Source of the DNA: Methanospirillaceae archaeon
GTDB taxonomy: Archaea > Halobacteriota > Methanomicrobia > Methanomicrobiales > Methanospirillaceae
DNA: 51,020 nt
Direction of reading: 5' to 3'
Assembly (NCBI GenBank): GCA_016926505.1
Contig: JAFGOM010000085.1
Location: 1 to 51,020 of the forward strand
Shown here: one piece after another, positions 14,622-45,376 of the stretch
Layout of the letters: each line of letters begins with the position of its first letter
How positions within the stretch are numbered: the stretch's first letter is position 1
The notes under the pieces: generated by a model
Told to the model about the DNA's origin: nothing
Databases searched by the model: none
What the model saw: only the letters and a program-made list of their open reading frames with translations
Position numbers and translations under genes: made by a program

Positions 14622-14909
14622 ATGACACCGGCAATACAACCCGGACAGACCGTCAGGTACCCGAGAACCGGAACTTCAGGAGTTGTGGTATCAATCAGTG
14701 ATCGGGAGGGAGTGCAATTTGCAGAACTGGACAGCACCGGTCTTTTGTACCGCATCGATCAACTCGTCCCTGCCCAGCTTACCAGTCACACAAAGACCGA
14801 AAAAGAGGACGATTCTCTTGAACAGATCCGAAAAGAACGTGAATCTGATCTCTATTCGGAGCAGATTGATACGACCAGCCTTGATGGTGCCTGTTCAGGT
14901 GCCGGATAA
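14622..14909 (+). CDS. DUF2098-family small protein
   Basis: This is a 95-residue soluble protein whose N-terminal 55 residues (IQPGQTVRYPRTGTSGVVV, then VQFAELDSTGLLYR) look like the small beta-barrel of the archaeal DUF2098 family. Function is unknown. The rest is charged, with a run of Glu/Lys/Arg and a Cys near the end. It follows aglB by 47 bases and is separated from aIF2-gamma by a promoter, so it may be the last gene of the glycan operon or its own unit. A T6 tract at 14934-14939 may terminate it. Confidence 0.62.
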   Translation: MTPAIQPGQTVRYPRTGTSGVVVSISDREGVQFAELDSTGLLYRIDQLVPAQLTSHTKTEKEDDSLEQIRKERESDLYSEQIDTTSLDGACSGAG

Positions 14910-35682: not shown

Positions 35683-37293
35683 ATGACACGACTTATCACG
35701 GTTGAAAACCTCTCCAAGGAATTTGATGGCAAAAAAGTCCTTACCAATATCTCTTTTACCATTGAGGAGGGCGAAATCATCGGCATCATCGGTAGATCCG
35801 GAGCAGGAAAGACCGTACTTATGCACCTTCTGAGGGGTATTGAAGAACCCCCTACTTCGGGCCGTATCATCTACCATGTGGCAATGAGCGAGAATCAAGA
35901 CTGTACCTATGTTGCTGTCCAGAGCAGGGCAGGAGAGATCTGTCCCCGTTGTGGATCTCCTCTCGTGGCCGTCGATATAGACTTCTGGGCCCCGGAAAAC
36001 GAAGAATCAAAGAAGCGTATCATGGGTAGTACCGCAATGATGTTTCAGCGTACGTTTGCGCTGTATGGTAATGATCGTGTCATTGATAACGTGCTTCGTG
36101 CCCTTGATGATATCAAATATCCACAAGAACACGCAATCAACCGGGCAATCGATCTTATCGATGAAGTAAACCTCTCCCACCGGATGATGCATATTGCACG
36201 TGACCTGTCAGGAGGAGAGAAACAACGGGTTGTTCTTGCCAGGCAGCTCGCTAAAGATCCCTGTGTTCTCTGCGCTGATGAACCGACCGGAACGCTTGAT
36301 CCGGCAACTGCAGCAATTGTTCACCAGATGCTTCTGAATGCCGCACGTTCAAATAACATGGCCATGGTCATAACCTCTCACTTCTCCAATATCCTGGATG
36401 ATATCGTTGACCGGGCAATGCTCATTGAAAATGGCGAGATAAAGGAGATGGGGACACCCGAAGATGTCATTGCCTCGTTCATGGAGGGGTATAACGATGA
36501 GATGGACTATTGTTCCGTGCAGCTTGGCGAGACCATACTTGAGTGCCGCGATATCGCAAAGAGATATATCGCAGTCGATCGCGGGCTTATCAGGGCTGTT
36601 GATGGTGTTTCCTTCACGATTGACCGGAAAGAGATCTTTGGTATCATCGGAACAAGTGGTGCAGGAAAGACGACACTTTCGCGCATGATATCAGGTATCA
36701 TTGAACCGACCAGTGGTGAGATGGAGATCCTCATCGGTGACGACTGGGTTGACATGACAAAAGCCGGGTTTGACAAACGGGGGCGTGCAAAAGCCTATAT
36801 CGGATTACTCCACCAGGAATACGATCTCTTTCCCCACCGCACAATTCTTGACAACCTGACAGATGCAATTGGTCTTGAACTGCCAAAGGAACTGGCTATG
36901 AGAAAGGCGATAATCACCCTCCGAATGGCAGGATTTACCGAAGAAAAGAGCAAGGAGGTTTTAAACCGAAAACCGGAGACTCTCAGTGAAGGGGAACGTC
37001 ACCGGGTAGCCCTTGCACAGGTACTGATACGTGAACCACGGATCGTAGTCCTTGATGAACCCACCGGTACCATGGATCCCATCACCAAGATCGATGTGAT
37101 GCATTCTATCATGCATGCACGCGAAGAGATGGAAGAGACCTTTATCGTCGTCTCCCATGACATGGATTTTGTCAGGGACATCTGTGACCGTTGTGCCCTT
37201 ATGCGTTTCGGGAAGATCGTAAAGATAGGCCCCACAGCAGAGATACTTGCCGAGATTACCGAAGAAGAACGGCAGAAAATGGAACATGAATAA
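35683..37293 (+). CDS. atwA: Methyl-coenzyme M reductase system component A2 (AtwA)
   Basis: AtwA is the ATP-hydrolysing component needed to reduce the nickel of coenzyme F430 in MCR to its active state. The 536-residue protein has two ABC ATPase domains in one chain. Walker A sequences are GRSGAGKT at 37-44 and GTSGAGKT from residue 323. Signature motifs are [11 protein letters not shown] and, in the second half, [12 protein letters not shown] cysteine-rich insertion in the first domain (Cys74, Cys87 and Cys90 in CPRCGS) is characteristic of this family and could bind metal. There are no membrane segments. It leads the operon and is separated by 30 bases from mmp3. Confidence 0.95.
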
Positions 37294-37323
37294 CTCAGGT
37301 TTGATTCTATCAGGTCAGATGAA

Positions 37324-38862
37324 ATGATATCAATCTTCCTGGACGGAGAAGAGAAAACAGTCCTGGAAGGAACCAGACTGGGAGATATCCTTGTTTTTCA
37401 CGATCCCAGTCTGGTGGTTGCGGTTATTCTTCCCGGAAAGAAAGATTCTCTTGCAGGCAGAAATTATCTTGTCCAGACCTCTGCAGGCGAGGTGATTATC
37501 GAGGCAGGGGGAGAGGGCAGTGAACTTTTTTCATCAGATACCCTGCTTACCGGTCTGCACTGGAGAGACCAGAAATCCATTCACTTCGGTCCGTTCCCGT
37601 CCCATATTGTCCCTGCACGACAGGAAGCCCGTTATGAACGCGGGGATGTTATTATCGGATGCGGGGGATATGAACCAGAGCGTTCTTACCTTGTTTTTGC
37701 ATCCCGGTCCCATATCGCGGATCATGGAGCCCGGCAGGGAGGAGGTGTCATCGGGCAGGTTGTATCAGGTCTCGGGATCCTTGACCGTCTGGAGACAGGG
37801 GACAGGATTGAATCGATTAAACCGGTTCTTACCTTCTCAGACAGCACTGAATCCTACACCACGTCAGATCCGAATCTGGTTCTTTTTCCCGGTATGCATA
37901 TCATCTCCTATCTGCGCATTGAAGCAAAAGGGTATTCTGATGGCAGATCTGCTCCATTAGCTCCGAGGAGCGTGGAACACCTTATGCTTGGATGCAGGGG
38001 AAACGAGTACTGGACCTCACTCTCATCAAGTACCCATATCAGGGATGATCTGTTGGCAGGAACAGATATTCCTCATGAAATGTCAGGCCCCCGCTGTGAC
38101 GGGTCGGTTACAATACGCACTACCGGCAAGAAAAGAGGTTCAATCTACCTGTATACCGAAGATATCCCCAAGAGCGTACATCATACCGTTGTCGGGCAGG
38201 TGATTCACGGGATTGAACTCGCTCGCGTCGTTCATGCAGGGGAACGCTTCAGGGTCGAGGTTATTCCTGAGCAGTTTGACCTTTTAGGATTATCCCTTGC
38301 AGATGCAAAGGAATTTTCAGAGAGAAGAGGAGTAACATTTACCTGCGATGATTACCATGAATCGACCAGCCATGATCTGGTGGTGATTCACCAGGATCCA
38401 GAGACCACGATGGAGGTCCTTTTTAATGGATCTGTCTCTGTTACGACCACCCCTTATGCAAATGTCATTGATATCATGCTTGATGATATGCATGCCTACT
38501 CCAGCTGCAAGACGTTTCGTGAAGTAACAGGCCTTAAATTTCATCCCATCGGCAAATTACCTCACGTATTCTCGTTTGAGGATGTTTACCTCTTTAAGGC
38601 CGTCATTCCTACGGGAACAACAATTAATCCTGAAAACACCCCGGAGGAGGGGACTGAGATCGCAGCAGGAACACTTGCGATGACAAATGATTCACGCAGA
38701 AGTACCGGGATCGTCGGGGTGAGGACCGAATCGAATGATGAATTCGGACCGACATCTGAGCCGTTTTCCGGCACTAATATCATCGGCCGTATCCTCAATC
38801 TTAATAAATTAAAGAAGATCACGGAAGGAGAAACGGTATATTTCAGAGAGGGCAGAGAATGA
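37324..38862 (+). CDS. mmp3: Methanogenesis marker protein 3 (Mmp3)
   Basis: This 512-residue protein belongs to the methanogen-specific family UPF0288/TIGR03268. Mmp3 has been found in the MCR activation complex with McrC, Mmp7, Mmp17 and AtwA. The N-terminal 60 residues (MISIFLDGEEKTVLEGT) resemble a ubiquitin-like or MoaD-like beta-grasp. The central HIADHGARQGGGVIGQV region recalls cyclophilin-like folds. No transmembrane segment is seen. It overlaps mmp6 by four bases (ATGA). Its exact role is not known; the complex probably handles electron transfer and cluster chemistry for F430 reduction. Confidence 0.93.
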   Translation: MISIFLDGEEKTVLEGTRLGDILVFHDPSLVVAVILPGKKDSLAGRNYLVQTSAGEVIIEAGGEGSELFSSDTLLTGLHWRDQKSIHFGPFPSHIVPARQEARYERGDVIIGCGGYEPERSYLVFASRSHIADHGARQGGGVIGQVVSGLGILDRLETGDRIESIKPVLTFSDSTESYTTSDPNLVLFPGMHIISYLRIEAKGYSDGRSAPLAPRSVEHLMLGCRGNEYWTSLSSSTHIRDDLLAGTDIPHEMSGPRCDGSVTIRTTGKKRGSIYLYTEDIPKSVHHTVVGQVIHGIELARVVHAGERFRVEVIPEQFDLLGLSLADAKEFSERRGVTFTCDDYHESTSHDLVVIHQDPETTMEVLFNGSVSVTTTPYANVIDIMLDDMHAYSSCKTFREVTGLKFHPIGKLPHVFSFEDVYLFKAVIPTGTTINPENTPEEGTEIAAGTLAMTNDSRRSTGIVGVRTESNDEFGPTSEPFSGTNIIGRILNLNKLKKITEGETVYFREGRE

Positions 38863-39317
38863 ATACCTATCAGCCATCCTATCAGGGAACCGTTACAAAA
38901 TACGTCTTTGTCGAGTCACCCCATACTACACCTGATGATCTGGCAAGTCTTGCATATGAGATATCAGATCGTGCCATGATAAAAGAGACCTGTTTTGGCC
39001 TCCAGATAACCGGAGATGAGAAGGATGTCGCCGATATCATCAGGCAGCTCAGGACCCGTGATCCTGCACATATCTTTGTAAAAGACAGGGGATTTCCTCC
39101 CGGAGATCCCCGGCGGTGCCGTGCAAATCTTGGCGGTGCACGACCCGGCTATTTTGGTCACGAGTTTGAGATGGGAATTATAAAGAGGATATCACAGGGA
39201 ATTCTTAATCTGGATGAGAGAGAAGAGGGAAAAGTGGCGAAACCTCCGGTAATCCGGCCGGATACGGGAATCGATGTCGCACAACTTGCAACATTGATGA
39301 AAAAAGAGGTGCCATAA
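38859..39317 (+). CDS. mmp6: Methanogenesis marker protein 6 (Mmp6)
   Basis: A 152-residue soluble protein of the TIGR03272 methanogenesis-marker family, recognised by FVESPHTTPDDLASLAYEIS, KETCFGLQITGDE, and DRGFPPGDPRRCRANLGGARPGYFGHE in the middle. The GGARPGYFGHE stretch is highly characteristic. The last 40 residues vary. No enzyme motif is visible. It overlaps mmp3 by four bases and is one base from mmp5, suggesting obligatory co-expression. The function is unknown, but it occurs only in organisms with MCR. Confidence 0.9.
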   Translation: MNTYQPSYQGTVTKYVFVESPHTTPDDLASLAYEISDRAMIKETCFGLQITGDEKDVADIIRQLRTRDPAHIFVKDRGFPPGDPRRCRANLGGARPGYFGHEFEMGIIKRISQGILNLDEREEGKVAKPPVIRPDTGIDVAQLATLMKKEVP

Positions 39318-39318
39318 C

Positions 39319-39768
39319 GTGACAAAAATATTCATATATCCAACAACCAGCCTGATCCTCTCTGACATGGTTGCCCGGTTCGGACACACTCCAATCGGAT
39401 CGGCCCTGGCCATCCGGGAACGGATACAGACTGCAGGGATTGATTCCCCTCCTCTTCAGATGACTCCCGAAGATGCAAAGAAAGGACTCCGCTGGGCTGC
39501 AGTTGAGGTCCCCTCCGGGGTCAGGGGACGGATGTCACTATATGGTCCCCAGCTTGAAGAAGCAGAGGCAGCGATCATCATCACTGATGCTGAATTCGCG
39601 TTTGGTTGCATGGGGTGTGCCCGTACCAATGAACTCCTTGTGTATCTGATAAAGAAGAAAAAAATCCCCATTCTGGAGCTCAGGTATCCGGCTGATGAAG
39701 TTGAAGGAAATGAGTTTGTTGCTGCAATTCGTGACTTTTTGAGAGATTTGGGAGAAGAACATGACTGA
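39319..39768 (+). CDS. mmp5: Methanogenesis marker protein 5 (Mmp5)
   Basis: This 149-residue protein belongs to TIGR03271. It starts at GTG 39319, one base after the mmp6 stop. A Cys-x2-Cys pair (GCMGCART, Cys97 and Cys100) could bind a metal or cluster. The remainder, such as [20 protein letters not shown] and [16 protein letters not shown], fits the family. No enzyme motif is evident. It overlaps the next gene by eight bases. Confidence 0.9.
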
Positions 39769-41005
39769 ACAGAAAGTCAGGATAGCACAACTCTCCTGCG
39801 GGCCGGAATATAGCGGAGTACAGAAAGAGATCAACGATGCTGCTGCTGCTGTCGATGCCGAGATATTCTTCCCTGACCTGACCTTACGGGATATCAAAAG
39901 AAATTTCCATGATTATGGTATCGATGTACGGAGTGCAGACTTAAAACTCGCCATTGCACGGGCAGTTGCCCTTGTTGAAGGAGATGTCGAGGCTGATGCT
40001 GTCTTTATTGCAACATGCTTCCGGTGTGCCGAGGCAGCCATTGTCAGAAATGAACTCAGGCACTATATCCACGAGAATTCCCCCCTCCCGGTCGTCAGTT
40101 ACTCTTTTACCGAACGGACAACATCAGGAACCCTCCTGACACGAATGGAAGCCCTGACAACGATTGCACGGAGAAGGGCACTTCTGGCCCGGGAACGGCA
40201 GACCGGGATAACGATGGGTATTGATTCCGGCTCTGCAACCACGAAGGCAGTTATTATGCAGGATAACGAGATCATCGGAACCGGCTGGGTACCCACAACT
40301 GAGGTTCTGCAGTCAGCACAGGAAGTCAGGGATCATGCATTACAGGAAGCCGGCCTTCTCATGAAGGATATCGAAGCCATCGGAGCAACGGGGTACGGCC
40401 GGTTTCTTGTCGGTGAAGAGTTCGGTGCTGATCTTATCCAGGAGGAATTAACCGTTAACTCGAAAGGGGCTGTGTTTTTAGCCGATTGCCAGAAAGGCCC
40501 TTCAACCGTCATTGATATCGGAGGTATGGATAACAAGGCCATCTCAGTCCAGGACGGTATTCCCGGAACCTTTACTATGGGAGGTATCTGTGCCGGGGCC
40601 TCGGGACGATTCCTCGAGATGACTGCCAAACGACTTGGAGTTGATATTACCGAACTGGGGCCTCTTGCCATGAGAGGGATGGGATCTGACGTCCCGATGA
40701 ACAGTTACTGCATCGTGTTCGGAACCCAGAGTCTGGTAAACGCCCTTGCACAAGGACATTCAAAAGAGAATGTTGCTGCTGCTGCCTGTCACAGTGTCGC
40801 TGAACAGGTCTATGAACAGCAGTTGCAGGAGGTCGATATCAAGGATCCTGTCATCATGGTCGGCGGGACATCGCTTATTGCAGGACTCGTGAGAGCCATG
40901 GGTGATCTTCTCCAGACCGATATCGTGGTTCCCCGGTATTCGCAGTACATCGGTTCAGTCGGGTCGGCACTTCTCTCATCAGGTTTCATCAGGAAGGAGC
41001 AGTAA
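39761..41005 (+). CDS. mmp15: Methanogenesis marker protein 15 (Mmp15), BadF/HgdC-type ATPase
   Basis: This 414-residue protein (TIGR03286) joins a methanogen-specific N-terminal domain of about 145 residues to an ASKHA ATPase of the dehydratase-activator type. The N-terminal part has Cys13 (SCGPE) and Cys86/Cys89 (CFRC). The ATPase domain begins at [11 protein letters not shown] near residue 152. In the activators HgdC and BcrA, a [4Fe-4S] cluster is bridged between subunits by Cys in 'CAAGTGRF' and 'C-x-VFAES'. The matching segments here, CAGASGRF (Cys277) and CIVFGTQS (Cys317), are retained. ATP-driven low-potential electron transfer to MCR or a cofactor is therefore plausible but unproven. 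It overlaps mmp5. Confidence 0.93.
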
Positions 41006-41009
41006 ACCA

Positions 41010-41591
41010 ATGTCCACACTCGATTATTTCGAGGTTGAGTCAACAGATAAGGTTGGTGCAGATCAGTATCGCAGGCTTGCTTCCGTTGTTATCGGGGATC
41101 ACGGCCTCCTGAAAGTGATCCAGAAGATCCATATCTATATCGATCCCGAGGTCCCGGTCTTTGTGGCAGTGGGAATTACCCGGACACTGCTCGCTGCGAT
41201 CCGGGTGAGTGATATTGGTGCTATCACAAACCAGGACGGGCAGGTCATTATCAGTATCAACGAGGAGACCTATCTTGCGGCTCTCTTACAGGTTCTCTGG
41301 AACCGGTTCTCAAAAGACATGGTACAACAGCCTGACCGGTTCACCATCATGATGGACCTGACGAATGAGGAGGCAGAAATTCTTCCTGACATGATTGTTA
41401 TCGATCCGACAGATACGCTTTACAAGGATCTCATCTACTCGATGCAGATCATCTGTCCGGAAGGGTTTAAAGTCAGAAAACAGAATTTTCTTGCAGGAAA
41501 GTTCTATTTTGTTGCGAGTGAGGATACCCTTCCCGAAGATATCATGCCACTGGTTCGGGAAAAGTTTGCCCTGATGGGGGAGACGATATGA
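41010..41591 (+). CDS. mmp17: Methanogenesis marker protein 17 (Mmp17)
   Basis: From the ATG at 41010 (site AGGAAGGAGC lies upstream) the protein has 193 residues and begins MSTLDYFEVESTDKVGADQY; an upstream extension to 40902 overlaps mmp15 and is rejected. It belongs to TIGR03291. Mmp17 is reported as part of the MCR activation complex. There are few cysteines and no standard enzyme motif. It is four bases after mmp15 and overlaps mmp7 by four, so the three must be expressed together. Confidence 0.92.
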   Translation: MSTLDYFEVESTDKVGADQYRRLASVVIGDHGLLKVIQKIHIYIDPEVPVFVAVGITRTLLAAIRVSDIGAITNQDGQVIISINEETYLAALLQVLWNRFSKDMVQQPDRFTIMMDLTNEEAEILPDMIVIDPTDTLYKDLIYSMQIICPEGFKVRKQNFLAGKFYFVASEDTLPEDIMPLVREKFALMGETI

Positions 41592-42526
41592 TTCTTGAGC
41601 CCGTCTCATACAAAGGGGGTGTGTACCGCCATGATGAGATCCTGGATCTCATCGAGGATCTTGGCGGATATATCATCCAGAAACATATCATTGCGCAGGA
41701 TGTCATTCTCCAGGCACTCATTCCAAAAACAGACATTGATCTGCTCAGAACCATAGCGAGACCCCTTGCCGGTGAGGTTACGACTGCCCCGCTTGTCGGG
41801 ACCGAGATAGCAGTTGTCTCCATGTCCCTTGAGATCCATCACCTTCCCCATGCATCGTGTGACGTCGCCGAGTACTTACGAACCGAGGGTGCCAAGACCA
41901 ACATGATAGGTCTTGCCCGTGGTTTTGGAAAACGAATCGCGCTCATGAATGAAGAGGAACGGGCAATTATCAATGAACACGATTGTGCAGTCTACCTTCT
42001 TGGAAATTTTGAGAGTTGCATCCAGAAAAAAATGCCGGTATTACGTCGTGGGATAACCGTGCCGATCCTCGTCTGTGGAGCGCCGGAAAGGGAGAAACTG
42101 ATGCAGATAATCGATCCCCCGGTTGACGGATATATCGGAGGTGTCGGACGATTTATGCACAGGACAAAGGAGGCAGGGGAGATCGCACGGCTTGATGATA
42201 TCGTCAGGGAAGTCGCGCAGGTATTGGATACAAAACGGGCAGCCATCGCCAAGGATCCGCTCTCAGTCTCACCGGCACGACTTATGGATGTTATCATATC
42301 AGAGATACCTGATATCAGGTACGTGACATCTCCGATTCCGGTTGTTGTTCAGATTGATGGTCTCCGGGTAAAGCTTCCCTTTGACCTTTATGCAGGTGAG
42401 ATTGGAGATATCCGGATTGAAGAAGGGATTCGTATCGCTTCTCTTGCTGCGATTACCCCTTCACGAATGAGAAATTACATCCTGATAAAGATAAAACCGT
42501 TTTCAGAGACCGGAATCAGAGTATAA
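41588..42526 (+). CDS. mmp7: Methanogenesis marker protein 7 (Mmp7)
   Basis: A 312-residue protein of TIGR03274, starting MILEPVSYKGGVYRHDEI. Mmp7 is a member of the MCR activation complex, reported to bind complex iron-sulfur clusters with its partners. Cysteines occur in ASCDVAEYL, EHDCAVYLL, ESCIQKKM and LVCGAPE; these could include ligands, but I cannot say which. The rest has alternating strands and helices with no membrane segment. This is the last gene of the operon, ending 63 bases before the PEGA gene. Confidence 0.93.
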   Translation: MILEPVSYKGGVYRHDEILDLIEDLGGYIIQKHIIAQDVILQALIPKTDIDLLRTIARPLAGEVTTAPLVGTEIAVVSMSLEIHHLPHASCDVAEYLRTEGAKTNMIGLARGFGKRIALMNEEERAIINEHDCAVYLLGNFESCIQKKMPVLRRGITVPILVCGAPEREKLMQIIDPPVDGYIGGVGRFMHRTKEAGEIARLDDIVREVAQVLDTKRAAIAKDPLSVSPARLMDVIISEIPDIRYVTSPIPVVVQIDGLRVKLPFDLYAGEIGDIRIEEGIRIASLAAITPSRMRNYILIKIKPFSETGIRV

Positions 42527-42589: not shown

Positions 42590-43573
42590 ATGAGAGCATG
42601 TAAAACGAAAAATATTTACCGATATTATGTTCTGCTCCTGTTTGTATGGATCTGCATCTATTGTACTCTCATTCCGGCACATGCCATTGTAGCCCCGGAA
42701 ATCCCTGATATTTCTTCAGAGATGAAAGGGGCAGCAGAGGGGTTTTATGAGATTATCAGTAATACCGACGGCACCAGGGTCTATTTTGATGCCGATTTTA
42801 AAGGTTTTATCTCCAATACCGGGCTCATTGTTCCGGTCTCACGCAACACAGATCCCTATACCACCATTACCCTGGAGAAGGAAGGATACCAGACGTTTCG
42901 TTCCCCCCTGCACAGCTATCCTGAACCGGGAAAGACCGTAACCATTCACGTTCCCATGACAAAAGAGCCGGCAGGAGGAGTTGGAACCGTATTAATTGAC
43001 GGAAATCCGGCTGGCACCATAGTTATCCGGGACAATGCCGGGATGGGCACCATTCCTGAATCAGGGATGATAATCCTTGCCAATATTCCATCAGGCATCC
43101 ATACTTTTACCTTTTCGTACCCCGGGTACGCAAACCAGACAATTGAGGAGTATCTCAACATCGGGGCATTGTTGCGACTCAGAATAGAGATGATACCTGA
43201 TGATACGGGAACCATATCTGTTTCTTCACAACCACAGGGAGCAGAGGTATACCTCGATGATGTCTATAAAGGGATAACCCCGATCGTGTTACCAGATATT
43301 CCTGCAGAAACCTACACGATTCTTTTAAGAAAGGACGGATATTCTGACCAGGTGAGTACCGTCTCAATAGAGGGAGGAAAGGAACAGGCAGTAGCAATCC
43401 CGTTATCTCCTCTCATGGTACCATCAGAGGAATTTTCCAGCCGGCAGAAGGGCAGTTCACCTGCAGAATTCCGCCAGTTTGCCGGTCTTCCACTTACCGG
43501 TATTGCCGCCATCGGAATCCTTATCCTTGCTCTGGGTATCCTTGGTATGTATGTGATAATGAAAAAGAAATGA
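42590..43573 (+). CDS. PEGA-repeat surface protein with C-terminal membrane anchor (copy 1)
   Basis: This 327-residue protein begins with a basic leader and a hydrophobic segment (about 10-32) that acts as a signal peptide. The body contains three PEGA-like beta-sandwich units: GTRVYFDADFKGFIS near residue 64, GTVLIDGNPAGTIVI near 132, and ISVSSQPQGAEVYLDDVYKG near 205 (in pieces). A low-complexity linker leads to a C-terminal transmembrane helix (about 303-324) and a KKK tail. It is thus probably anchored with its repeats outside. A TATA-like CATATTTTTA at 42557-42566 lies about 28 bases before the ATG and no ribosome site is seen, fitting a leaderless mRNA. It converges with a lipoprotein gene 26 bases away. 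Confidence 0.82.
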   Translation: MRACKTKNIYRYYVLLLFVWICIYCTLIPAHAIVAPEIPDISSEMKGAAEGFYEIISNTDGTRVYFDADFKGFISNTGLIVPVSRNTDPYTTITLEKEGYQTFRSPLHSYPEPGKTVTIHVPMTKEPAGGVGTVLIDGNPAGTIVIRDNAGMGTIPESGMIILANIPSGIHTFTFSYPGYANQTIEEYLNIGALLRLRIEMIPDDTGTISVSSQPQGAEVYLDDVYKGITPIVLPDIPAETYTILLRKDGYSDQVSTVSIEGGKEQAVAIPLSPLMVPSEEFSSRQKGSSPAEFRQFAGLPLTGIAAIGILILALGILGMYVIMKKK

Positions 43574-44115: not shown

Positions 44116-44473
44116 ACAAGATCAGATCATCAACTATTTGAATCATGATGCGAAAGTCAGATTCCACCCATGAACCAGACAAGAGGTTTTCCATGAATTG
44201 GAAAAAGTATCTATTATGTCTGTTTCACGTGAGAATCCGTACCGGTTCCGGTTATCAGGAGAGACTTTCAGATATCATCACCGGTTACTGTTGATTTATC
44301 GTATTGTCAGAAGAAAGCAGGTATTACCCCTGCAATATCCCCCTTGAGGAGCAAGATCACTTTAAATAGTCTGATCAAAAGAAGAGATGCTGCCGGGATA
44401 CTGATAACAGGAGATCCAAATAATGGACTTTTTATCCTTTCAGATAGAAATACAACCATCAGGAGAACGAAGT
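44116..44473. other. Intergenic region between a minus-strand lipoprotein and a PEGA gene
   Basis: These 358 bases hold the divergent promoters. For the PEGA gene on the right, TTTAAATA at 44361-44368 is a good TATA box, predicting a leader of about 80 bases. AGGAGAA at 44461-44467 is the ribosome site. For the lipoprotein on the left, AT-rich CTATTTGAAT at 44133-44142 may be its TATA box. I see no coding potential, tRNA or repeat otherwise. Confidence 0.45.
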
Positions 44474-45376
44474 ATGATGATAAAGAAAGTTCTAACTATT
44501 CTAGTCCTATTCTCAATTTTGCCAGTTTCCTTTGTCGCCGGACAGACTACAGAGATTATACCTGATACCGGGTATTACCTTATCCGATCCAATATTGACG
44601 GTGCTGAGGTTTATTTTGATAATGAGCTGATGGGAGTTATCGAGAGTAATAAACTGCTGATAGAAGTTCCCATTACCACAAAACCCTTGTATAGTACCTT
44701 CTCAGTCACTGCTTCCGGATACTCAACCTACAATGGGACCATTCTCCGGGTTCCCCTTCCGGGAGAAACGATTGATATGAGAGGGAACCTGAAACAAAAT
44801 CCAATTACGGGAACCGGAACTATATCTATCGGCTGTTCTCCCATAAACACTTCAGTCTATCTTGATTCAGTCTTTACGGGAACGATTGACTATTCCGGTA
44901 TCATGAGAATAAATGACGTGGCGCCCGGCCAGCATGTCCTGCTATTTGAGATGGACGGGTACGAAGGACAGGAGCAGTTTTTGTATGTTAACGCTAATAT
45001 GATAAATCAGATACTGGTAGAACTCATCCCGATTCCAAAAGGAAACCTGATTGTCACTTCTGTTCCATCCGGTGCATCGGTTATGATAGATGAAGTATAC
45101 CGGGGGATAACCCCTCTCACCCTGCCGGGGATGAATGTTGATAATTATGACCTTATCGTCAGCATGCCGGGATATCATGACTGGATTGGCTCAGTTTATG
45201 TCCCATATAACAGCACCGGCCAGATAGAAGCAGTGTTAGATCCGCTCCCGACTCCGACCACAAAGCCCACGACCCAGCCGACACCCATTCCCACAACCCC
45301 TTCGGCAGGGGTGCTCCCGGTAATTACATTATGTGCTCTTTGTCTGGTAAGCCTCATCTATTTACGCAGGATCTGA
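44474..45376 (+). CDS. PEGA-repeat surface protein with C-terminal membrane anchor (copy 2)
   Basis: This 300-residue protein from the ATG at 44474 (site GGAG eight bases upstream) starts with a signal peptide (MMIKKVLTILVLFSILPVSF). Three PEGA-like units follow: GAEVYFDNELMGVIE, then CSPINTSVYLDSVFTG, then SVPSGASVMIDEVYRGITPLTLP. A Thr/Pro-rich stalk (PTPTTKPTTQPTPIPTTP, residues about 257-282) precedes a C-terminal hydrophobic helix and an arginine tail, so it is anchored to the membrane. Sequons NGT and NTS are candidates for AglB glycosylation. The arrangement matches the upstream PEGA gene. It converges with a second lipoprotein at 128 bases. Confidence 0.82.
   Translation: MMIKKVLTILVLFSILPVSFVAGQTTEIIPDTGYYLIRSNIDGAEVYFDNELMGVIESNKLLIEVPITTKPLYSTFSVTASGYSTYNGTILRVPLPGETIDMRGNLKQNPITGTGTISIGCSPINTSVYLDSVFTGTIDYSGIMRINDVAPGQHVLLFEMDGYEGQEQFLYVNANMINQILVELIPIPKGNLIVTSVPSGASVMIDEVYRGITPLTLPGMNVDNYDLIVSMPGYHDWIGSVYVPYNSTGQIEAVLDPLPTPTTKPTTQPTPIPTTPSAGVLPVITLCALCLVSLIYLRRI

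Follow-up and report, generated by a model that had tools for sequence, protein, structure and literature searches.

A conserved operon for activation of methyl-coenzyme M reductase in a Methanospirillaceae archaeon and a possible electron-supply role for Mmp15, Mmp5 and Mmp6

Introduction

The locus described here raises the question of what three methanogenesis marker proteins (Mmp), Mmp5, Mmp6 and Mmp15, contribute to a row of genes that otherwise encodes known parts of the machinery activating methyl-coenzyme M reductase (MCR). The row, A2 (AtwA)-Mmp3-Mmp6-Mmp5-Mmp15-Mmp17-Mmp7, lies in a stretch of 51,020 nt (contig JAFGOM010000085.1, assembly GCA_016926505.1, Methanospirillaceae archaeon), hereafter called the window. 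It is a conserved MCR-activation operon of methanogens: all seven families are present, their order is maintained among related loci, Mmp5, Mmp6, Mmp7, Mmp15 and Mmp17 were found only together with McrA in 47 chosen genomes, and McrC is encoded with the mcr genes elsewhere in the genome. Beyond this, we consider it an even bet that the operon encodes a stoichiometric core as well as a shared, ATP-driven electron-supply module composed of Mmp15, Mmp5 and Mmp6. Genomes, contigs within a genome and fetched loci are designated G, C and L, respectively, and the genome that contains the window is G000.

Part of this picture is established. A cryo-electron microscopy (cryo-EM) study of 2025 (PMC12176620) describes the purified activation complex of M. 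maripaludis as consisting of A2, Mmp3, Mmp7, Mmp17 and McrC and regards extra Mmps as presumably needed; its main text does not name Mmp5, Mmp6 or Mmp15. An earlier note on this DNA had counted A2, Mmp3, Mmp7 and Mmp17 among the known MCR-activating machinery, in agreement with that study. The same seven families are consecutive genes in Methanohalophilus mahii (294496497-294496503; markers 7, 17, 15, 5, 6 and 3 followed by AtwA) in a ProPhylo study of 2011 (PMC3226654), in which A2 is said to be accompanied by six uncharacterised proteins in one long cluster. Since this row was already printed there, the operon is not new, and we rejected its description as a novel arrangement; both the seven-gene operon and the inference of a common process are known. 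The passages of that paper do not propose what markers 5, 6 and 15 do. Mmp5 and Mmp6 have been reported as an operon in Methanosarcinales, with a single CxxC in Mmp5 (PMC9425974), and in passages of PMC12176620 the A2 gene of Methanosarcina is placed inside the cluster, while the cluster of M. marburgensis is followed by nifB. The passages considered from PMC11267899 mention mmp10 only, and those from PMC3087415 and PMC9635834 assign no function to markers 5, 6 or 15. Among open-licence papers in PubMed Central no link between Mmp15 or Mmp5 and HGD-D proteins was found, although subscription papers or database notes could hold one.

Composition of the operon

All seven open reading frames (ORFs) are located on the forward strand and their products exceeded the NCBIfam cut-offs in a family profile search, which bore out the coordinates and families of the earlier note. 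The row starts with AtwA, the tandem ATP-binding cassette (ABC) ATPase known as component A2 (35683..37293, 536 amino acids; TIGR03269, 872 bits against a cut-off of 517). It is followed by Mmp3 (37324..38862, 512 amino acids; TIGR03268, 442 bits), which according to passages of PMC12176620 is the scaffold of the activation complex, by Mmp6 (DUF2102, 38859..39317, 152 amino acids; TIGR03272, 138 bits), by Mmp5 (DUF2112, 39319..39768, 149 amino acids with a GTG start; TIGR03271, 227 bits), which is related by hhalign to the C-terminal domain of HGD-D proteins as detailed below, and by Mmp15 (39761..41005, 414 amino acids; TIGR03286, 744 bits, and TIGR00241, 314 bits). The last two genes encode Mmp17 (DUF2113, 41010..41591, 193 amino acids from ATG; TIGR03291, 180 bits, and PF09886) and the McrC-like, cluster-carrying subunit Mmp7 (41588..42526, 312 amino acids; TIGR03274, 439 bits, and PF04609). 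For Mmp17 the program-made ORF begins earlier, within Mmp15, and both of its profiles were scored on this longer ORF, while 41010 was chosen as the start. The gaps along the row were, in order, 30, -4, 1, -8, 4 and -4 bases, and the claim of seven same-strand genes with overlaps and gaps of at most 30 bases thus holds at measured values of -8 to +30.

McrC, noted earlier as missing from the row and expected near the mcr genes, was located by a profile search of the same genome on another contig (G000:C97:18725-19321, 306 bits). There it is flanked by ORFs that by eye resemble McrB/McrD and McrG, with McrA (C97:21100-21501) 1.8 kb beyond. A homologue of DUF2098, the small McrC-binding protein of the cryo-EM structure (PMC12176620), is encoded outside the operon in the same window, about 21 kb upstream (14622..14909, forward strand, 95 amino acids; PF09871, E 2.8e-19 at G000:C95:14634-14906), and is not mentioned in the earlier note. 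PF09871 was not found in five of the 11 McrA-bearing genomes searched (G082, G064, G063, G092 and G020). The locus resembles the M. maripaludis system in holding orthologues of A2, Mmp3, Mmp7 and Mmp17 in one operon, with McrC beside mcr and DUF2098 elsewhere in the window, but differs in that M. maripaludis has its extra Mmp genes scattered according to passages of PMC12176620, whereas all seven genes form one row here. The M. mahii cluster contains the identical seven families as consecutive genes.

Conservation of gene order

Comparison of gene order, which the earlier note had proposed as a check, was performed on the best 80 loci of a scan for Mmp15 relatives, whose titles name Methanomicrobiales taxa (Candidatus Methanofilum among them) or merely 'Euryarchaeota archaeon'. 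The complete order A2-Mmp3-Mmp6-Mmp5-Mmp15-Mmp17-Mmp7 on one strand was present in 66 of these loci, while 12 were interrupted by contig ends with the remaining genes agreeing in order, and the expectation of a conserved row was borne out. Locus L109:3877-7041 (Methanoculleus) agreed in order, but its A2 and Mmp3 share a single reading frame, which reflects either a fusion or a sequence error. In L074 (Candidatus Methanofilum arcanum) Mmp3 to Mmp7 were present, while the 781 bases before Mmp3 (L074:1-782) gave no match to A2, unlike other loci with sequence there; with these bases available, a mere cut at the contig end was rejected. In 40 further stretches, hand-picked from other genomes of the phylum, the full seven-gene order was found in 26 and one more was cut by a contig end. 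Two stretches (L069 and L070) had a fused Mmp6-Mmp5 gene, with A2 encoded on the other strand, L071 kept Mmp3-Mmp6-Mmp5-Mmp15 together with Mmp17 and Mmp7 more distant, L064, L065, L068 and L072 retained only Mmp5 beside Mmp15, and Mmp15 stood alone in six of the 40, some of which are short contigs. Gene order across the 80 loci exceeds chance.

The fused Mmp6-Mmp5 genes form one continuous frame (L069:6945-7745 and L070:8837-9667) and belong to G092 and G063 of family f9, of which four other tested members lacked McrA; these two genomes are probably methanogenic Archaeoglobi. In 31 of the 33 genomes with McrA, Mmp5 and an Mmp15 were direct neighbours whose profile matches are separated by no more than about 130 bases, and the pair persisted where the rest of the operon is dispersed; in G118 the two are on different contigs. 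Tight packing and conserved order would also suit a larger physiological complex, the old A3a fraction, in which Mmp5, Mmp6 and Mmp15 are stoichiometric subunits that were lost when McrC served as bait, and passages of PMC9081873 describe A3a as a 700-kDa assembly of which smaller versions failed. The second copies of the core described below bear on this possibility.

Co-occurrence with McrA

Co-occurrence was scored in 47 genomes of one phylum, chosen to span families with and without Mmp15 and not a random sample, of which 33 carried McrA. Mmp6 and Mmp7 were found in all 33 (24 and 25 of them, respectively, above the family cut-off), Mmp5 in 32 (missing from G027, where the operon is split over contigs), Mmp17 in 32 (missing from G118) and full-length Mmp15 in 32 (missing from G027), and each of them in none of the 14 other genomes. 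Mmp6 matches in three genomes (G005:C66, G088:C12 and G118:C136) contained one or two internal stop codons, which may stem from alignment overrun past the gene end or from real disruption.

Together with the conserved order, this pattern supports the earlier assignment of Mmp5, Mmp6 and Mmp15 to the same process as their neighbours. We consider it very unlikely that they are bystanders, inherited along with their neighbours but playing no part in activation. The dispersal of the extra Mmps in M. maripaludis and their absence from the proteins reported with purified McrC (PMC12176620) would fit that view, but their invariant cysteines (see below), their restriction to McrA-bearing genomes and the adjacency of Mmp5 and Mmp15 where the operon is broken oppose it. 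ATPases that use ATP to reactivate corrinoid proteins are well documented, and an Mmp15 module could have a different reduction target in the methane pathway, for instance a corrinoid protein or a heterodisulfide-type by-product, with its place in the operon serving co-regulation only. A corrinoid analogy is drawn in passages of PMC12176620. The co-occurrence of Mmp5, Mmp6 and Mmp15 with McrA, divergent McrA included, and their absence from all 14 chosen McrA-less genomes speak against such a target, which we regard as highly improbable.

Second copies of the core

Three genomes (G007, G027 and G025) contained additional divergent McrA matches, with four divergent matches in G025, and genomes of this type may be alkane oxidisers as judged by their McrA sequences. 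All three also carried second copies of Mmp3, Mmp7 and Mmp17, with some of the Mmp7 and Mmp17 copies partial or under the family cut-off, as well as a second A2 and McrC. In G025 (contig C2, L185:6947-13468) these formed one row of an ABC protein, Mmp7, McrC, A2, Mmp17 and a short Mmp3, and the McrC of this row is extended at its C-terminus by a DUF2098-like stretch (55 of 94 positions). In G007 and G027 (L184, L187 and L188), A2, Mmp7, a McrD-like gene and McrC were found in one row (L184:11117-14625 and L188:328-4090; the McrD-like matches to PF02505 are weak at 57 and 59 bits), while Mmp3 was located elsewhere, next to a partial Mmp17. With the exception of McrD and the ABC protein, all genes of the second rows encode components of the complex resolved by cryo-EM.

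Mmp5, Mmp6 and full-length Mmp15 were single-copy in G007 and G025, while in G027 Mmp6 and Mmp15 were cut at contig ends and Mmp5 was not seen. No match to any of the three was found within the fetched second-core stretches. We read this as a core that is built per enzyme and an Mmp15/Mmp5/Mmp6 set that is shared. Membership in a larger complex would predict otherwise in the three genomes with second, in part incomplete, copies of A2, Mmp3, Mmp7, Mmp17 and McrC, and that alternative is in our estimate rather improbable. Because Mmp5, Mmp6 and Mmp15 were neither reported with purified McrC nor found as second copies in these three genomes, acting in the same process need not mean belonging to the same complex.

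The ATPase domain of Mmp15

Residues ~148-405 of Mmp15 constitute an archerase-type ATPase with C277, C317 and C343. It has the ASKHA-type ATPase fold and sequence of an archerase/acyl-CoA dehydratase activase (TIGR00241, BcrAD_BadFG), aligned with 4eht_A at E 9e-44, and in structure comparison reached Z 21.7 over 242 residues to 9gai_D, while the first row outside the family scored 15.0. C277 and C317 line up with the cysteines of the motifs CAAGTGRF and STCTVF in the activator 4eht, which are [4Fe-4S] ligands in the activators. Mmp15 thus carries the cysteine pair by which a dimer-bridging [4Fe-4S] cluster is bound in its relatives. Cysteines 13, 86, 89, 277, 317 and 343 were present in 120 of 120 aligned rows, which are mostly from Methanomicrobiales and from which incomplete matches had been dropped beforehand.

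NifB is needed for clusters of the [8Fe-9S-C] type. It was strong in 32 of the 33 McrA-bearing genomes, with only a fragment in G058, and was found with lower scores in three of the 14 genomes lacking McrA. These data are relevant to the alternative that Mmp15, Mmp5 and Mmp6 act as a maturase downstream of NifB, assembling, inserting or reductively repairing the [8Fe-9S-C] clusters that McrC and Mmp7 carry, without supplying electrons during activation. Such a role would explain why the three were not reported in the purified complex (PMC12176620) and lack second copies where the core has them, and the nifB gene that follows the Mmp cluster in M. marburgensis (PMC12176620) also fits. In G000, however, NifB is encoded outside this operon (G000:C6), and the ATPase domain is most closely related to ATP-driven electron donors. 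We know of no relative of this domain that assembles clusters. A maturase is therefore an unlikely reading, if one to be taken seriously.

Two Mmp15 genes were present in 13 of the 14 genomes of family f10 and also in G118, where the copies are at L061 and L062. In the f10 stretches that were read (L063, L066, L067 and L073) one Mmp15 copy had no adjoining Mmp5, and no common theme was apparent among the neighbours of the second copy in three f10 stretches.

Relationship of Mmp5 and Mmp15 to HGD-D proteins

The remainder of Mmp15 (residues ~13-142) is an HGD-D-C-like domain, hereafter Mmp15-N, with C13, C86 and C89. The HGD-D profile used comprised 29 proteins (30 of 55 PF06050 matches were fetched and L171 was dropped as wrong). 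With hhalign, Mmp15-N matched it at 94.7% over 125 columns (from residue 13, profile columns 237-384 of 385) and Mmp5 at 93.2% over 95 columns (from residue 47, columns 276-381). The opposite direction gave 84.9% and 86.1%, respectively, and with L171 left in the profile the scores were 93.2% (Mmp15-N) and 89.9% (Mmp5). Among the controls, the reversed HGD-D profile gave 0.2% and 2.2%, Mmp6 3.1% and Mmp17 0.2%. Against 43 other ORF-family profiles from the locus flanks the maximum was 2.9% for Mmp5 and 1.5% for Mmp15-N, a comparatively easy null because these families are unannotated and some are possibly non-coding frames. By profile, Mmp15-N and Mmp5 are thus homologues of the C-terminal domain in subunits of 2-hydroxyacyl-CoA dehydratases and benzoyl-CoA reductases (BCR).

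The cysteines point in the same direction. C89 of Mmp15 and C97 of Mmp5 align on the HGD-D cysteine that is conserved in 29 of 29 proteins; the six cysteine columns of the profile (L154 positions 36, 74, 110, 271, 302 and 333) are occupied in 20, 29, 25, 20, 20 and 29 of the 29. In number and spacing these columns match the [8Fe-9S] cluster ligands reported for BzdN (Cys36/73/100/263/293/327, PMC11971306), with the 29/29 cysteine corresponding to the last ligand, Cys327, by position and not by structural alignment. C97 and C100 of Mmp5 were present in 110 of 110 aligned rows, again chiefly from Methanomicrobiales and after removal of incomplete matches, and C45 and C87 of Mmp6 in 106 of 106.

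Mmp5 and Mmp15-N correspond to the C-terminal alpha/beta domain of HGD-D (PF06050) with its most conserved cysteine, while the N-terminal domain with further ligands is absent from both. As there is no room for this domain, we did not file Mmp5 or Mmp15 as HGD-D members. PF06050 had no match in G000 at E 0.001, so that this genome lacks the partner with which such ATPases classically work. Relative to the BCR/2-hydroxyacyl-CoA dehydratase (HAD) family and its activators (HgdC/HadI, double-cubane cluster protein (DCCP) reductase, BzdNO and MbdONPQ), the C-terminal domain of Mmp15 is homologous to the activators and has both cluster cysteines, and Mmp5 and Mmp15-N resemble by profile the C-terminal domain of the catalytic subunits. 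In contrast to that family, activator and C-domain are joined in one chain, no complete HGD-D partner was found in G000, and neither Mmp5 nor Mmp15 has the N-terminal cluster-binding domain.

Structure searches were less specific. Profiles of Mmp5, Mmp6 and Mmp15-N compared with the sequences of solved structures gave nothing better than E 0.11. In the Foldseek search with the Mmp5 model, HGD-D chains (8s02_B, 7yyl_A, 7yzm_A and 3o3m_B) from BzdN, DCCP and a 2-hydroxyisocaproyl-CoA dehydratase were among the best. The structural evidence for a relationship between Mmp5 and HGD-D is only consistent with the profile result and does not provide independent proof.

A model for electron supply

According to passages of PMC12176620, the core of A2, Mmp3, Mmp17 and Mmp7 grips MCR together with McrC and DUF2098, and three [8Fe-9S-C]-like clusters, arranged in the chain FeSIII-FeSII-FeSI, lead to Ni-F430. 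Activation by the purified core was driven by ATP and Ti(III) citrate, was slow and low in activity and failed with dithiothreitol, and the authors suspect that auxiliary Mmps were missing (PMC12176620). For this reason we propose an electron route that may run via Mmp15. Mmp15, Mmp5 and Mmp6 would constitute a small electron-supply module common to all copies of MCR and alkyl-coenzyme M reductase (ACR) of the cell. A ferredoxin or similar donor would reduce the putative cluster of Mmp15, ATP hydrolysis would push the electron to very low potential, and the electron would pass via Mmp15-N and Mmp5, to which Mmp6 would be attached, to FeSIII, the surface cluster of Mmp7/Mmp17, and from there through FeSII and FeSI to F430. 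Mmp15-N and Mmp5 would be derived from the HGD-D C-terminal domain and retain its most conserved cysteine. The module finds support in the Mmp6-Mmp5 fusion, the adjacency of Mmp5 and Mmp15, the conserved cysteines and the second cores without a second Mmp5, Mmp6 or Mmp15, while cluster binding by Mmp15 and Mmp5, the direction of electron flow, docking on Mmp7/Mmp17 and the coupling of the module to ATP are inferred. In its bolder form, which we hold as tentative and would not call probable, the model states that MCR is charged by a stripped-down BCR-type pump that feeds the nitrogenase-like [8Fe-9S-C] wire of Mmp7/McrC, with one pump serving all MCR/ACR copies of a cell.

Several observations weigh against an electron-supply module. 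The purified core activates MCR without Mmp5, Mmp6 and Mmp15, with ATP linked to A2, and in M. maripaludis none of the three is among the proteins that passages of PMC12176620 report as co-purifying with McrC. Copy numbers are not uniform: G082 has four McrA and two A2 but single Mmp3, Mmp7 and Mmp17, so that second cores do not always accompany extra McrA, and A2 was found twice in four genomes with one McrA match (G037, G058, G064 and G088), which contradicts a simple copy-number rule. Four f10 genomes tested had one McrA each, and their two Mmp15 copies are unexplained by the model. As Mmp5 and Mmp15-N lack the N-terminal domain, which holds three ligands, and the ligands of the C-domain except the last, they may bind no cluster. 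Direct similarity between Mmp15-N and Mmp5 was weak (29-44%), and Pfam HGD-D recognised one of 21 Mmp5 (E 0.02) and none of 20 Mmp15-N members. The Mmp15 model was poor (predicted local distance difference test score, pLDDT, 61), and its whole-model structure search covered residues 148-410. With the Mmp5 model (pLDDT 75) Foldseek returned no match at E < 0.001, and in VIA-align 3o3m_A reached Z 6.4 and was outranked by TIR and DNPH1 folds with Z up to 9.1. Since Foldseek was weak and VIA-align favoured other Rossmann-like folds, fold alone does not single out HGD-D.

Flanking genes

Upstream of the row, 196 bases away, lies a gene of the Usp family on the opposite strand, and a PEGA-domain gene follows 63 bases downstream. 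Two proteins after the row, at 42590-43573 (PEGA domain) and 44423-45376, looked similar by eye. No repeats were found upstream of the row, and scans for sigma-70-type promoters and terminators remained at the level of shuffled sequence, such models being ill-suited to an archaeon.

Conclusions

What is added here to the known operon is a specific, testable role for Mmp15, Mmp5 and Mmp6. As candidates for an ATP-driven donor, they make the question of the missing electron donor of MCR activation testable with three proteins, and they suggest extra genes that a heterologous MCR would need. If the model is true, a single machine would combine archerases with nitrogenase-type clusters, two biological solutions for dealing with extremely reducing electrons.

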